From Chelatococcus reniformis (lineage in GTDB: Bacteria; Pseudomonadota; Alphaproteobacteria; Rhizobiales; Beijerinckiaceae): a DNA stretch of 64,000 nt. Where the stretch lies: positions 62,001 through 126,000 of the forward strand of contig NZ_BMGG01000007.1 of NCBI RefSeq assembly GCF_014640075.1, in the 5' to 3' direction. Shown piece after piece: positions 11,667-44,386 of the stretch. A program made the position numbers and the translations under genes. The notes under the pieces were generated by a model, which made no database searches, was not told where the DNA came from, and worked only from the letters and a program-made list of their open reading frames with translations. Numbering within the stretch: position 1 is the first letter of the stretch; the number at the start of each line of letters is the position of its first letter.

Positions 11667-12086
11667 TCTTCCGCTCCTTGTCGGTGTAGCCTTTGGTTAG
11701 CGACGGCGCGTGTTTATCGCGACGACTGGCGCCGCCGCGAGCCAGGATAGCCCGCCGCGACGACACGCAGCGGCGGACGAAGCAGAGGCTCGAGCTGGTC
11801 GCGCGGTCGAACGATCCGGCGGTGCTCAACCCCGTCAGCACGTCTTTCACGTTCACGGCCACGATAAGCACGGCTCAGCGGCACCCGGCAAAGCGGCACG
11901 GTGACGGTGCCGCCCAGAAGAGAAGCCCCCGCTCCCGTCTGCCAGGGGGGCGCGTTCGAGGCGGGCCGCCGCGCATCTGTATTGAGCGGAACGACTTCTC
12001 GTCGAGTCATCATCCCGCTCTAACTCATTGTTTGAGCATGATCTTGCCCTCAAACTGATGTTCAGTTTCTCGATCACACCGCAGGC
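11667..12086. other. Intergenic stretch without a supported gene
   Basis: No open frame here has a credible ribosome site or recognisable domain. It contains the promoter region of the GDSL hydrolase and the 3' flank of the stress-protein gene. I see no repeat. Confidence 0.5.
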
Positions 12087-14611: not shown

Positions 14612-15262
14612 TCGTGTCCCCAGGCGTGGTGTAGCTGATTGCGGCTACGACGCTGTTCGGCTTGGCCGGGTATCAGGCTGCCGTAAGGGCAAGTTGACGA
14701 TGGATCATCGCTCAAGGCGGTGGAAACGCCGGAGCCGCCCATGGCCTTCACCAGATCGTCCACCACGCGGGTCGAGACGCCCTGGATGTAGGCCTCCTGG
14801 ACCACCGCGGTGAGCGCCTTCTCGGCCAGCCGGCGCGGCTCCAGGAAGCCGGGAAAGTAAGAGCCCTTGCGCAGCTTTGGAATCCGCAACTCGACCGTGC
14901 CGGCCCGGGTCTTCCAATCCCGCACGCGGTAGCCATTGCGCTGTGCCAGCCGCTCCACGCTCCTCTCGCCATCGCCCGCACCAGTCAGGCCGCCGACCTC
15001 CAGTTCCATCAGCCGCTGCGCGGCAAAGCCGATCATCTCCCGCAGCAGATCGGCATCAGGGGGTCTTCTCCAGCAGCTCTTTCAGGCTCATCATCTCGTC
15101 GGTCATCGGTGGTCCTCGGTTCAGGTTGGCTGTCGCAACCCGACCTTATCGGCGAACCGCCGATGACCGCCGCGCCGGCGATCGCCCGCTACAGCCCTTC
15201 TCAACGAGAGCGCGGGCGACCGCCTCCGCTACCGCGGAGCTACACCAATCAACGGGACACGA
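14612..15262. mobile_element. Internally deleted IS256-family element
   Basis: The two subterminal blocks face outward. On the minus strand 14635 to 14612 reads AGCTACACCA, six bases, GGGACACGA. On the plus strand 15238 to 15262 reads AGCTACACCA, six other bases, GGGACACGA. Between them is a transposase remnant reading leftward. The distance of about 650 bp is roughly half of a complete IS256-type element, so the middle of the transposase is missing. The exact outer termini and target duplication were not identified. Confidence 0.65.
14660..15106 (-). pseudogene. IS256-family transposase, frameshifted and internally deleted
   Basis: The start codon at 15106 opens [16 protein letters not shown] and then meets a stop. 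One extra C in the ACCCCCTGATG stretch explains it, because the next frame resumes with [20 protein letters not shown]. The sequence continues with the usual IS256 N-terminal domain: [48 protein letters not shown]-type [13 protein letters not shown]. It then jumps directly to LSDDPSS, a motif found at the C-terminal end of these transposases. The catalytic DDE domain is therefore gone. It could still be moved only by a related active transposase. Confidence 0.75.
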
Positions 15263-15275
15263 CCTGTTGCGGCTG

Positions 15276-15624: not shown

Positions 15625-16803
15625 ATGGTTGACTTGAATGTCGCGAGTGGAGCGACAACGTCGCTGGGCACGAGCACATCCTACCAAAGCATTTTTTTCG
15701 GAACGGGGTCGACACTCGTTGTCGATGGCGCCTCCGTGTCGACGGCATATCTCGATACCGGAACCAATTCCGTGATCAAGGTCGCCAACGGGGGCACCTT
15801 GGTCAATACGGGGTGGACCGGAGGATCGGGCGCGACCTATGAGGTCGAGGGCGCATCGACGCTGGATTTCTCGGGCGCGACTGCCGGCGGCGGCGGGATC
15901 GTCGGCGAGACGGTCATCTTCAGCGGGGTTGGCCACGGGACCGTGAAACTTCCGGGCGGTGTGCTCGACTACGCGAATCCCAATCAATCCGGCCTCACCG
16001 TCCAAGGTTTCGGCTCGGGCGATCTGTTGCTGTTCGGCGACGCCCACATCACCGAGTTCAGGACCATTGGCAACGGCGACGGCACGATGACCATTCAGGC
16101 GGTGGACGTCCAGAGCGTTTGGTACACGCACATCCTGTCCTCGGTCACGCTGTCGGGCAATTTTGACCCCACCCATTTCGTCTTCGATCCGGCCCTTGGC
16201 ACAGTCAGCTATGCCTGCTTCCTCGCCGGCACCATGATCGCGACGCCCGACGGCGAAGTGGCGGTCGAGGAACTCCGCATCGGCGATCTGGTGCTCGGCG
16301 CCGATGGCCGCTCGCGCCCGGTGCGCTGGATCGGCCGTCGGCAGGTCGTCGCCATGTTCGCCGATCCGGTGCAGGCCTACCCGGTGCGGATCGTTGCCGG
16401 CGCACTCGGCGGCGGGCTGCCGGTCCGCGATCTCTTGCTATCGCCGGACCATGCGCTGCTCGTCGACGGGGTGCTGGTGCAGGCCGGAGCGCTGGTGAAC
16501 GGCAGCAGCATCGCTCGAGTCGAGCGGCCGGACGCTCGCTTCACCTACTTCCACATCGAGCTCGATGATCACGCGCTGATTCTCGCCGAGGGCGCGCCGG
16601 CAGAGACCTTCGTCGACAACGTTACCCGTCGGCGCTTCGACAACTACTCGGAATACGAGGCCCTGTTCGGCGACGGTGAGGCTTGCATCCCTGAACTCGA
16701 ACTGCCGCGCATCAAGTCGGCCCGTCAGATGCCGCGGGCCATGTGCGAGCGTTTGAGTGCCGAGGCCGCGGCACTTGGCTTCTTGAGCCAAGCCGCCGCA
16801 TAG
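15625..16803 (+). CDS. Hint-domain (Hint_2) protein with N-terminal beta-repeat region
   Basis: This 392-residue protein has two parts. Residues 1-195 are rich in Gly, Thr, Ser and Val with repeated short beta-strand units (SGATTSLGTSTS, GTNSVIKVANGGTLVNTG). Residues 198-335 are a Hint (hedgehog/intein) autoprocessing domain. It begins at Cys198 in CFLAGTMIATPDGEVAVEEL, continues with GDLVLGADG and includes LLSPDHALLVDGVLV with His276. The C-terminal tail carries the conserved DNYSEYEALFG. In this alphaproteobacterial family the Cys is expected to drive self-cleavage of a secreted adhesin-like passenger. No type I secretion genes are nearby. A terminator follows at once. Confidence 0.88.
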   Translation: MVDLNVASGATTSLGTSTSYQSIFFGTGSTLVVDGASVSTAYLDTGTNSVIKVANGGTLVNTGWTGGSGATYEVEGASTLDFSGATAGGGGIVGETVIFSGVGHGTVKLPGGVLDYANPNQSGLTVQGFGSGDLLLFGDAHITEFRTIGNGDGTMTIQAVDVQSVWYTHILSSVTLSGNFDPTHFVFDPALGTVSYACFLAGTMIATPDGEVAVEELRIGDLVLGADGRSRPVRWIGRRQVVAMFADPVQAYPVRIVAGALGGGLPVRDLLLSPDHALLVDGVLVQAGALVNGSSIARVERPDARFTYFHIELDDHALILAEGAPAETFVDNVTRRRFDNYSEYEALFGDGEACIPELELPRIKSARQMPRAMCERLSAEAAALGFLSQAAA

Positions 16804-16815
16804 CGTTGGCGCGAT

Positions 16816-16847
16816 GACCCCGTCCGCTTTTGCGAACGGGGTCTTTC
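16816..16847 (+). terminator. Rho-independent terminator of the Hint-domain gene
   Basis: The stem GACCCCGTCCGC (16816-16827) pairs with GCGAACGGGGTC (16832-16843) with one mismatch around a TTTT loop, and TTTCCGTT follows. It starts 13 bp after the stop codon at 16803. On the other strand it lies beyond the Hint remnant, so it may serve both directions. Confidence 0.8.
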
Positions 16848-16891
16848 CGTTAAGGCGAAGAGATTAAGCGGCCTGTTTGGCGACCGATGCG

Positions 16892-17050
16892 TCAGCCCTC
16901 TCGATGCGAGCCCGGACCCGCGAGCGGCAACTGCCGGAAGCTCTTCACACGGGGCAGATCCAACTCGCCGGTGTGAGCGGTGTCGGGGCCATACAAGGCC
17001 TCATACTCAGCATAACTATCGAAGCGACTGCGGAAGGCATTACCTTTCAA
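16892..17050 (-). pseudogene. C-terminal remnant of a second Hint-domain gene, convergent
   Basis: The minus strand reads FRSRFDSYAEYEALYGPDT, ELDLPRVKSFRQLPLAGPG and then stops. This aligns with the C-terminal tail of the intact Hint protein, which reads RRRFDNYSEYEALFGDGE, ELELPRIKSARQMPRA. The shared order and spacing leave little doubt about homology. Upstream of about 17050 the similarity ends and no Hint core, signal or start is found, so only the last 50 codons survive. It points toward the intact gene, with the terminator between them. Confidence 0.75.
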
Positions 17051-17455
17051 CTGCTGAAGGACGAAGCGCGGCGGGACCTGGCCATCTATCTCCTGGCTGA
17101 TCGTCGGAACTCGACGAGGGGGTTGCTGCCGTGCCGGATTTGCCGAGCACAGCAGCCTTCATCGAGCTTTCCGCCGATGGACCGGTGTGTCCACAAGCGG
17201 GGGCTAAAGCGCTTCCCCCCGAGCGGGTGGCCACACGTTCAGTGAAAAGCGTCCTCAGATTCAAACACGTGGAGCGTTTTCGAACCGATCAAGTGTGATC
17301 GCGACATGCTCGCGGCGTCTGCCACCGCAGGCACGGAACGGTCATTCGCAATGTAGATCGGCGCTCAGCTTTCTGCGCCGCACGGTCCATCGGCAGGAAC
17401 GCTTTGGGGTCGCCGCCGTTATTGGATGATCATCCAACGATGGGAGCGCCGACCG
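17051..17455. other. Intergenic region with a palindromic site before the oxidase-subunit gene
   Basis: No gene is supported. A perfect 16-bp palindrome, TTGGATGATCATCCAA, occupies 17422-17437, 18 bp before the chosen start of the next gene. It looks like an operator, though its binding protein is unknown. Confidence 0.5.
17422..17437. promoter_or_regulatory. Palindromic operator-like site TTGGATGATCATCCAA
   Basis: A perfect 16-bp palindrome lies 18 bp before the chosen start of the oxidase subunit IV-like gene. Its size and symmetry fit a dimeric repressor site. No regulator is known for it. Confidence 0.45.
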
Positions 17456-17635
17456 ATGGCTGCCATCACCGAACACTCCTACGGCTCGAGCCCGTCCGCC
17501 ACGTCAGCGAGCGCAGTGGCGGACGGGGACTATGCCGCCCACGAACAGGCGTATCGCGGCTTCCTGCGGCTTCTGAGAACCGTCATCGCGCTGCACGCAC
17601 TGGCGCTGGTGCTGCTGGCCATCTTCCTGCTGTAG
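17456..17635 (+). CDS. aa3-type cytochrome c oxidase subunit IV-like protein
   Basis: The protein has 59 residues. The C-terminal two-thirds match the small bacterial aa3 oxidase subunit IV: DYAAHEQAYRGFLRLLR, then one membrane helix TVIALHALALVLLAIFLL. In alphaproteobacteria this single-helix subunit is part of the aa3 oxidase or is found alone. Here no other oxidase gene is near. An in-frame ATG at 17426 lies inside the 16-bp palindrome, so the ATG at 17456, preceded by GGGAG, is preferred. Confidence 0.8.
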   Translation: MAAITEHSYGSSPSATSASAVADGDYAAHEQAYRGFLRLLRTVIALHALALVLLAIFLL

Positions 17636-17730
17636 CGGGACAGGACGCTGCCGCGGCTGCCTGGCCATGGCAGCTGCCGGTGCCGGCTAGCGGATGCGGC
17701 TCGCCGTCGGTCGCCACGTCCCCGAATCAC

Positions 17731-18759
17731 TCAAGCCGGGTCTGCCCGACCGGAGAGGAGATCCGCGGCCCAGCGGCTCGACGGGATCTGCTCGCAGACC
17801 GTGAGCAGGGCGATGGTCACCGGAATGCCGATGAAGGCGCCGGGGATGCCCCACATGAAGCTCCAGAAGAACACCGCCAAGAGGACGATAAAGGGCGAGA
17901 TGGCGAGCGCGTTGCCGGCGACTCGCGGCTCGATGTAGCTGCCGCTGAAGAACTGGATGACGTTCATGCCCACGAATACGGTGGTCGCCAGTTGCCACGA
18001 GCCGAATTGGGCGAGGGCGAAGACGGTGGGCAGCAGGGTCGCCGCCAGCGGGCCGACGAAGGGGATGTAGTTCAGCGCAAACGCCATCACGCCCCAGGCG
18101 AGTGCCAGTTCGAGCCCCAGGATCGCGGTCAGCCCCCAGACGGCGAGGCCCGTCAGCACGCTCATGACGGTGCGCACCACCATGTAGGTGCGCAGCTTGC
18201 GGGCGATGCTGGTGCTGGCCGCAAGCAGGCGCTCGCCGGCCGTTCCGGGCGCGGCGCGGGTCAGCTTGCGCTGCAGGATGTCGACCTCCAGCAGGCCGAG
18301 CATGACGAAGATCAGGGTCAGCACGGCAAAGGCGACGATGCCGTTCAGCCGGGTCGCCACACCCTGGAAGATGCGCAGCAGCCAGCTGACGTTGAAGCTT
18401 TCGGCCAGCGTGCCTGCGGCATAGAGGCCATGGCCTTCAAGCCAGGCGGCCGCCTCGCTGTAGAGCGCCTGGAAGCGCCCGCCGTTGGCGACCAGCCAGT
18501 GGCCGGCCTGGCTGAACCCCCAGAGGATCAGGTAGCCGAGGGCGCCGACCGTGGCGATCGTCACCACGAGTGTGATCACCATGGCCGGCAGCTTGGCCAC
18601 GCGTGCCTGGAGCAGCGCCTGCAAGGGCCAGACCAGCGCGATGACGAACAGGGCGAAGGTCACCGGGATTGTGACCGAGCGCGCCAGATGCAGCGCCGCG
18701 GCGGCCAGGATGGCCGTGCATATCCCGAGCAAGATGCGGATCTCGCGCCCGTCCATCAC
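17731..18759 (-). CDS. AI-2E-family transporter (PerM/YhhT-type membrane protein)
   Basis: The product has 342 residues and about eight membrane segments in the arrangement typical of the AI-2E exporter family. There are two N-terminal helices, a cytoplasmic or periplasmic helical stretch (residues 95-135), and a C-terminal block with ALNYIPFVGPLAATLLPTVF, IEPRVAGNALAISPFIVLL and WGIPGAFIGIPVTIALL. Family members export autoinducer-2, ions or other small solutes, and many have no known substrate. Two ATG codons stand side by side at the start. There is no cotranscribed partner. Confidence 0.9.
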   Translation of the reverse strand: MMDGREIRILLGICTAILAAAALHLARSVTIPVTFALFVIALVWPLQALLQARVAKLPAMVITLVVTIATVGALGYLILWGFSQAGHWLVANGGRFQALYSEAAAWLEGHGLYAAGTLAESFNVSWLLRIFQGVATRLNGIVAFAVLTLIFVMLGLLEVDILQRKLTRAAPGTAGERLLAASTSIARKLRTYMVVRTVMSVLTGLAVWGLTAILGLELALAWGVMAFALNYIPFVGPLAATLLPTVFALAQFGSWQLATTVFVGMNVIQFFSGSYIEPRVAGNALAISPFIVLLAVFFWSFMWGIPGAFIGIPVTIALLTVCEQIPSSRWAADLLSGRADPA

Positions 18760-42969: not shown

Positions 42970-43070
42970 AGCGCTTCGCGATTGGGTGGAAATCACCCGA
43001 TCGCGAAGCCCTCCAGATTCAAAAGACTATGAGCATCTCTCTGCCATTGGATGCCCCCATCCAATGGCTT
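42967..43070 (+). repeat. Dispersed repeat B, copy between two convergent genes
   Basis: The element opens TAGAGCGCTTCGCGATTGGG, and the stem GCGATTGGGTG with CACCCGATCGC surrounds GAAAT. It continues CTCCAGATTCAAAA, TATGAGCATCTCT and the closing palindrome CCATTGGATG-CCCC-CATCCAATGG. Its first TAG is the stop codon of the AraC gene and its end adjoins the MFS stop at 43070-43072. It may act as a bidirectional terminator. Confidence 0.85.
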
Positions 43071-44386
43071 TAGCCTTTGCCCCAGCGCTCGACGATCGGC
43101 CGATGCGCCGTCTCGCCGATGGACAGGAGCACGGCGAGACTGACGCCGGCGGCGGCAAGGACGTAGGCCGCCGGCGCGACGGGGGTGTCGAATGCCTGCG
43201 TGAGCCAGACGGCGAAGGACGGGGCGAAGCCGCCGAAGACGGCGACGGCCAGGGCATAGGCGACGGCCGGCCAGCTCGAGCGACTCTGGGTCGGAAACAG
43301 CTCGGCGAACAGGGCGGGGCAGGGGCCCGAGTAGAGCGCGATGGCGATGCCGAAGCAGGCCTGGATGATCACGACCAGCGCAAAGCTCTTGACCGCGGCG
43401 ATCAGCCAGAAAGCCGGCAGAGTCAGTACCATGACGGCGATGCAGGAAGCGAGCAGGAAGGGTCGTCGGCCGTAGCGATCGGAAAGCCCGCCGAACAGCG
43501 GGATCAGCACGGCGATCACCAGGGACGCGACCGTGTTTGACACGGCGGCCTGGGTGGCCGTCAGCTCCGCATGGATTCGCGTGTAGGTCGGCATATAGAT
43601 CATGAAGATGTAGAAGCACACGGTCCAGTAGACGCTGAGCCCGAAGACGATCGCGCCTCGCCCGAACTTGCGGCCCCACTCCGGTTGGGGAGACTTGGCC
43701 CGGATCGGCCTTGCATCCCGGAACACCGGGGTCTCCACGAGTCCGACCCGCATCCACAGGACGATCAGCCCGAGCGCGCCGCCGACAACAAACGGGATGC
43801 GCCAGCCCCACGACGTCATCTGCTCGCGCGACAGGGTGGTGATGACGATGGTGGCGATGGCATTGGCCAGCAGGTTGCCCACCGCGACCGTCATCGACAG
43901 CAGGCTGCCCCACAGCCCGCGCCGGTCGGGCGTCGACCATTCGACGAGGAACGCATTGGCGGTTCCGAACTCGCCGCCGGCCGACAGGCCCTGCAGCAGC
44001 CGCGTCATCAGCAGCAGAATGGGGGCGGCGATGCCGATTGCGGCGTAGGGCGGGATGAAGGCGATGGCGAGCGTGGCCATCGCCATCATCGCGACCGCCG
44101 CCAGCAGCGCCGGTTTTCGTCCGCGCCGGTCGCTGTAGCCGCCGAGGATCAGGCCGCCGAAAGGGCGTGAGAGGAAGCTGACGCCGAACAGCAGGAAGGC
44201 CGCCAACAGCGCCGCGTCCGCCTCGTCCGGCGGAAAGATCGTTTCAGCGATGTAGAGGATCAGGATGCCGTAGATGGTGAAGTCGTACCACTCCAGGGTG
44301 CCTCCGAGCATAGTGCCGATGCCGGCCCGCATGCGCCCTCCGCCCTCCCGCGTGGCGGGCAGCGAGTCCTGGCCTGTCACGTCCAT
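43070..44386 (-). CDS. MHS-type MFS transporter (metabolite:H+ symporter)
   Basis: The protein has 438 residues and 12 membrane helices. The hallmark segments are GGTLEWYDFTIYGILILYIA at the start, RPFGGLILGGYSDRRGRKPAL between helices 2 and 3 (the MFS loop motif), QGLSAGGEFGTANAFLVEWS, and FGGLSDRYGRRPFLLAS after helix 8. These are typical of the sugar/organic-acid MHS family (shikimate, ketoglutarate, proline). The substrate cannot be deduced. It is transcribed toward the AraC gene, with repeat B between them. Confidence 0.93.
   Translation of the reverse strand: MDVTGQDSLPATREGGGRMRAGIGTMLGGTLEWYDFTIYGILILYIAETIFPPDEADAALLAAFLLFGVSFLSRPFGGLILGGYSDRRGRKPALLAAVAMMAMATLAIAFIPPYAAIGIAAPILLLMTRLLQGLSAGGEFGTANAFLVEWSTPDRRGLWGSLLSMTVAVGNLLANAIATIVITTLSREQMTSWGWRIPFVVGGALGLIVLWMRVGLVETPVFRDARPIRAKSPQPEWGRKFGRGAIVFGLSVYWTVCFYIFMIYMPTYTRIHAELTATQAAVSNTVASLVIAVLIPLFGGLSDRYGRRPFLLASCIAVMVLTLPAFWLIAAVKSFALVVIIQACFGIAIALYSGPCPALFAELFPTQSRSSWPAVAYALAVAVFGGFAPSFAVWLTQAFDTPVAPAAYVLAAAGVSLAVLLSIGETAHRPIVERWGKG

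Follow-up and report, generated by a model that had tools for sequence, protein, structure and literature searches.

Described Hint Domains and Their Relation to the Locus

The Hint_2 family (PF13403) of Alphaproteobacteria is listed among the functions enriched in fast-responding bacteria and is found together with RTX repeats in Rhodobacteraceae, as far as the accessible portion of one report goes (PMC12487129). The Hog domain of Hedgehog consists of Hint/SRR or Hint/ARR according to part of an earlier account (PMC2362128). The available sections of a third source state that Hedgehog uses only the first N–S acyl shift and that BIL domains, which are without the +1 nucleophile, give mainly cleaved products (PMC7664689).

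The DNA analysed here, referred to as the window, is a stretch of 64,000 nucleotides from Chelatococcus reniformis. It contains an intact Hint_2 gene on the plus strand and, facing it on the minus strand, a short remnant resembling the C-terminal tail of such genes. The intact gene resembles the Hint_2 proteins of Alphaproteobacteria in its PF13403 score (150.2 bits vs. a cut-off of 28.4) and in its occurrence within a multi-copy set, since such sets are also found elsewhere in the class. It differs in its tail: a tail profile searched against 289 genomes drawn from the class found this form in the C. reniformis genome only, with up to 22 candidates scored per genome, in a draw that need not include the genomes where the tail was seen by other routes (Ancylobacter sp. 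Lp-2, Pseudoroseomonas deserti, Rhodoblastus sp. and G028, a member of the same family).

With the Hog domain, the intact protein shares the order passenger, Hint domain, C-terminal region, as well as a cysteine at the Hint start and the [ST]xxH motif, but the Pfam Hint model (PF01079) reaches only 13.2 bits on the gene against a cut-off of 29.7. The conserved tail can be likened to SRR or ARR by position alone, as both structural models are too poor for further comparison. The absence of a +1 nucleophile is shared with BIL domains, and the solved BIL chain 2lwy gives a weak sequence match (E 0.099). On the other hand, the search of solved structures, which returned 10 chains at E up to 10 with a best value of 0.023, contained no match at 0.001, and the Hint end is Asn in 16 of the 18 paralogs (His in the other two) and in 4 of 12 relatives from outside the genome. 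PT-HINT (PF07591) likewise sits close to the C-terminal end of proteins from a modular family, but its score on the window's protein is 15.5 bits against a cut-off of 27.7. In polymorphic toxins, the part behind the Hint domain is variable. The window's family shows the opposite arrangement, with a conserved part after the Hint domain and a variable part before it.

The Intact Hint_2 Gene

The intact gene (15625..16803, plus strand) encodes 392 amino acids and was delimited by its PF13403 match and by alignment of its tail. It can be divided into a passenger (residues 1-197), the Hint_2 domain (residues 198-331) and a conserved C-terminal tail (residues 332-392). The PF13403 match has an E-value of 6.9e-44, spans residues 198-331 and covers profile positions 2-145 of 147, above the curated cut-off, which places the protein firmly in Hint_2. 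The tail behind the Hint domain (NVTRRRFDNYSEYEALFG...AAA; 16619..16800, plus strand) was located by aligning paralog tails, 15 of 18 of which give a mean column identity of 80%. The peptides FDNYSEYEALFG and ELELPRIKSARQ, quoted in the preliminary description, lie within this reading frame, where that description had placed them.

The passenger (15625..16215, plus strand) resembles none of the genome's 17 others at a detectable level: it stands alone in its blastp group and has no Pfam match up to E 1. It is predicted to be beta-rich, with block mean pLDDT values of 63-86 for residues 1-80 of an otherwise unreliable model. The window's gene shows no sign of mosaicism, as C12_59071 is its closest paralog in the Hint part and shares first place in the C-terminal part.

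The Hint_2 Family in the Genome and Its Relatives

PF13403 has 19 matches in the C. reniformis genome, corresponding to 18 long genes plus one short piece, located at C12:11784. Matches of any kind are present in 8 of 60 genomes of relatives, C. reniformis included, and both congeners examined have none. Among 36 genomes of the family, 5 are positive and several copies are present only in C. reniformis and in G034, which has 8. In the 289 genomes of the class, a match is found in 14 and exceeds the cut-off in 10; two genomes of another family contain at least 13 matches each, and multi-copy sets are thus not unique to C. reniformis. A scan of named relatives, with 43 candidate stretches, gave three loci. 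Of ten Hint_2 stretches from outside the genome, four can be aligned over the tail as far as profile position 185 or further, three end part-way (154-158) and three stop close to the end of the Hint domain (131-132). A tree of 30 rows places 13 paralogs of C. reniformis, including the window's gene, in one group (support 81/76), and the label 'own' requires at least two changes on this tree, so that more than one Hint_2 lineage is likely.

Sorted by blastp (E up to 1e-3), the passengers of the 18 genes fall into 10 groups: six long passengers (436-488 aa), three of 257-283 aa, one pair and seven singletons, among them that of the window and a stub of 30 residues next to an assembly gap. Distant relationships between short passengers may have escaped blastp. 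Five passengers were scanned against Pfam and none has a match above the cut-off, the only candidate being a weak match to G8 (16.5 vs. 22.9 bits). Hint domain and tail are common to the family, and the passengers are varied. A shared module of self-processing type, varied passengers and a visible swap of 3′ ends (see below) together make this family a tractable case of the way in which bacteria may assemble repertoires of such proteins. In the literature searched, which leaves most subscription journals outside, no title or abstract start among the matches listed concerned exchange of Hint_2 tails.

Two further sets of Hint_2 genes have features of their own. The 8 matches of G034, a member of the same family, are spread over several contigs and include four at the very ends of contigs, and one of its Hint_2 stretches (L108) runs well past the tail region. 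At L077 (G000 C3:241000-250500), another convergent Hint_2 pair is 96-97% identical in Hint domain and tail; one partner has a 30-residue passenger stub at an assembly gap, and large direct repeats adjoin the pair.

A Mosaic Paralog and a Second Relic

The paralog C5_70163 has different closest relatives along its length. In windows of 30 codons with starts between codons 15 and 90, its DNA is 66-80% identical to C11_160796, compared with 54-74% for the next paralog; in windows starting at codons 120 to 165, the best other paralog reaches 86-89% and C11_160796 only 67-72%. A 3SEQ-like test of 2,432 triplets gave its best result for C5_70163 with C12_59071 and C11_160796, the statistic being reached in 0 of 2,000,000 permutations (p below about 0.0013 after correction for 2,432 triplets), under the assumption of exchangeable sites in a gene along which conservation varies. 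With C8_255401 or C10_289385 as second parent, 0 of 1,000,000 permutations each reach the statistic, and with the window's gene in this role 112 of 1,000,000 do so. Trees agree with this partition: C5_70163 and C11_160796 are joined with support of 100/100 by codons 1-120 and in 1% of 200 bootstrap trees of the C-terminal part. The hairpin following the stop codon is also common to C5_70163 and C8_255401 (91% identity over 35 bp, at offsets of 29 and 27), and no terminator match of C5_70163 with C11_160796 is listed. The simplest reading of these sequences is that recombination has given C5_70163 and a C8-like gene a common 3′ end that includes the terminator. Because the tail of C11_160796 lies on a long branch, the conflict may partly reflect change in C11_160796, which blurs whether C5_70163 or C11_160796 is the gene that changed.

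The short PF13403 piece at C12:11784 (L082 2766-3047; G000 C12, about 11765-12047) is a relic of another kind. It keeps the first ~143 bases of the Hint domain, followed by ~47 unmatched bases and then by the last ~20 coding bases with a C8-type terminator, so that an internal deletion has removed about 430 bases from the middle. The preliminary description had proposed searching the genome for the missing N-terminal part of the window's remnant; this relic is what such a search finds, and it is not the lost half, since it keeps a Hint start together with its own 3′ end. The same description had suggested that Hint proteins are exchanged or expanded at the locus. On the scale of the genome, expansion and 3′-end exchange are supported by the comparison of paralogs (18 long genes and one mosaic 3′ end), but this support does not extend to the locus itself.

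The Remnant Facing the Intact Gene

The remnant lies in an ORF of 52 codons from the ORF listing (16892..17050, minus strand), in accordance with the preliminary estimate of about 50 codons, and the quoted peptides FDSYAEYEALYG and ELDLPRVKSFRQ are both located there. Within it, 41 codons (16919..17041, minus strand) are homologous to Hint_2 tails; a Hint domain is lacking and the last ~20 tail residues are gone. Homology was assessed with a profile of 195 Hint-plus-tail positions built from the 18 long paralogs of the genome. A six-frame search of 16810-17750 with this profile detects the tail in a single frame, at profile positions 135-175 of 195 with 44.6 bits, and 63.5 bits are obtained for the remnant with a tail profile from which it was left out. 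The remnant thus keeps 41 of 195 Hint-plus-tail positions. None of the six frames of 16810-17750 contains a Hint domain, and PF13403 does not match the remnant. A few residues upstream of its tail could be aligned to a Hint end; this alignment was rejected as chance, the profile having stopped short of them. By itself, the remnant matches no Pfam or NCBIfam family above the cut-off, its sole Pfam row being DUF4787 (15.6 vs. 27 bits).

The substitution pattern of the remnant is compatible with decay. Over shared codons, the fraction of differing sites at codon positions 1, 2 and 3 is 0.284, 0.303 and 0.534 between the remnant and the 18 paralogs, compared with 0.210, 0.159 and 0.436 among the paralogs themselves. 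Its GC3 is 0.74 (paralogs 0.79-0.98), and it no longer has the final stretch of the tail, whose last residues are AA in every one of the 18 long paralogs. As third codon positions are still the most changed and the frame is open over 52 codons, this decay would be recent or incomplete, and the remnant could conceivably have a weak function.

The reading frames of the intact gene and the remnant converge. Between them, a hairpin with a short T tract was found by folding at about 16816..16843 (plus strand). The preliminary description had reported a terminator at this place: the 67-nt stretch with the hairpin does fold at -29 kcal/mol, but its stem is followed by only three T and then C, and a consensus terminator scan does not include it among its calls. 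It is plausible, not proven, that the hairpin is the terminator of the intact gene.

History of the Locus

The reading that accounts best for these observations, and that we consider probable, is that the remnant is a pseudogene relic, ordinary in itself, of a second Hint_2 gene that once faced the intact one, in a family with turnover and a predicted passenger-release mechanism. The passenger and the Hint domain of this second gene would have been lost by deletion or rearrangement. On the same reading, the family would multiply, join one Hint-plus-tail unit to varied passengers and shed fragments, and 3′ ends would sometimes be exchanged by recombination. A second gene lost by deletion had already been proposed in the preliminary description; the relic is borne out by the tail homology, a single deletion as its cause is not. 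Comparison of the locus with relatives, proposed there as a check, revealed no earlier state. Four relatives (L087-L090; G007, G017, G001, G002) carry the AI-2E transporter gene of the locus with 52-56% identity; the remaining 16 of the 17 ORFs tested around it have no counterpart in them. Since these relatives show no synteny and no intact form of the locus was found, deletion in place is something that we infer, and the history of the site cannot be read from the genomes compared. The value of the remnant lies mainly in its evidence of turnover in the Hint_2 family.

An internally deleted IS256-family relic (14612..15262) is located 5′ of the intact Hint gene. Its transposase remnant on the minus strand is recognised by PF00872 (2.9e-28). 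The element has imperfect inverted repeats of 25 bp at its termini (14612-14636 and 15238-15262); the IS256 model gives 68.4 bits, under its cut-off of 150. The right end of the element (15180-15268) has three genome matches among the best 40 of 42 candidates, the window's own included. The other two lie at G000 C2:427540-427618, 1.1 kb from C2_425813, and at G000 C12:11230-11282, 0.5 kb from the C12 relic, so that all three are 0.36-1.14 kb from Hint_2 loci. Coverage arithmetic gives a chance of about 1e-4 that both others lie so near. This figure is post hoc, stems from a screen of flanks and takes no account of the tendency of insertion sequences to lie in intergenic DNA. The association of IS256 ends with Hint loci is a lead that may be due to chance, and the relic is treated here as a neighbour, its membership in the Hint finding not being shown. 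A mobile unit common to the surroundings of the Hint genes was considered and rejected, as the flanks of 17 stretches share little when genes are masked; the flank of the window's Hint gene has only the IS256-family end in common, with two stretches.

These observations bear on a different origin, in which the tail arrived as a fragment via recombination or an IS element and was never part of a full gene at this site. The movement of 3′ ends between paralogs and the nearby IS256-family relic, with all three right-end matches close to Hint_2 loci, speak for such an arrival; it is nevertheless unlikely, because neither an element boundary nor a duplicated flank was found at the remnant, the flanks of the window's gene share no DNA with those of other loci besides the IS end, and the IS association is post hoc. 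Considerably less probable is that the neighbour's own 3′ end was recently copied in inverted orientation, with no second gene involved, even though the convergent placement a few tens of bases apart would fit this. The remnant is 68% identical (E 1.5e-12) to C11:160673 on another contig and only 59% (E 8.4e-10) to the neighbouring gene, and a second ranking gives 28 of 41 residues for C11_160796 and 24 of 41 for the neighbour, which argues against a recent inverted copy. The parent of the remnant cannot be named from 41 residues.

The 52-codon ORF might also encode a small protein with a function of its own, consisting of the tail alone and acting on intact Hint proteins, as its open frame and the predominance of third-position changes would allow. 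Excess drift at first and second positions relative to the paralogs, the low GC3 and the lost tail end make this very unlikely, as does its isolation: a search of the genome with the remnant at E up to 10 returns 19 places, of which one is the remnant and the others are the 18 long Hint genes (three with weak matches, E 0.12-1.5), and it is the sole solitary tail among these 19 tail matches, with no match to the tail profile listed for any other of the 289 genomes. That the resemblance between remnant and tails across the two strands, pointed out in the preliminary description, is a product of chance can be dismissed for practical purposes: 5,000 shuffles reach 5.1 bits at most, compared with 49.6 bits for the ORF, and the E-value within the genome is 1.5e-12. 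A relic of a second, facing Hint_2 gene remains the preferred reading.

Conserved Residues and a Proposed Passenger Release

The first Hint position is Cys in all 18 paralogs, which also share the motif [ST]x[DE]H; in the relatives from outside the genome, Cys and [ST]xxH are present in 12 of 12. Directly behind the Hint end stands Val in 17 of 18 paralogs and Ile in one, unlike the Cys, Ser or Thr of splicing inteins. Judging from these conserved residues, and by analogy with Hedgehog and BIL domains, the intact protein likely undergoes Cys-dependent release of its passenger without splicing. Cys198 at the Hint start would perform an N–S acyl shift where the passenger joins the Hint domain, and cleavage before Cys198 would then free the beta-rich passenger or hand it to a nucleophile. 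No splicing is expected because Val, and not Cys, Ser or Thr, follows the Hint end. The remnant has neither the cysteine nor a Hint fold and should therefore be inert.

Two AlphaFold2 models, calculated from 4-row alignments, have mean pLDDT values of 49.7 and 40.4 and are unreliable for the Hint part. A Foldseek search with the first model found no match at E up to 0.001; the Hint start of this unreliable model aligns with intein chains over ~36 residues at probabilities near 0.97-0.99 and E about 1. Type I secretion was considered as an export route and is not supported, as none of 115 matches to TIGR01842 (PrtD-type transporter) in the genome is above the cut-off.

A more far-reaching idea, which we regard as improbable, is that the Hint-plus-tail unit is a bacterial Hog-like 3′ cassette that moves by recombination among unrelated beta-rich passengers and links each passenger, once released, to a small nucleophile, for which a membrane lipid is one possibility; the tail would serve as the adduct-recognition region. 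If this were true, solitary tails and internally deleted copies would be scars of cassette turnover, perhaps aided by the IS256-family ends beside Hint loci.

Repeats and a Small Reading Frame Beside the Locus

A dispersed palindromic repeat of ~89 bp is present at 42980-43090 of the window and has 45 matches in the genome, several of which are the two strands of one place. The stretch 17203-17291 beside the remnant is a diverged relative of this repeat, linked to it via a match common to both at C3:514009-514114. Further along, at 17426-17635, a 69-aa ORF matches PF07835 (bacterial aa3-type cytochrome c oxidase subunit IV) with 31 bits, above the cut-off of 22.
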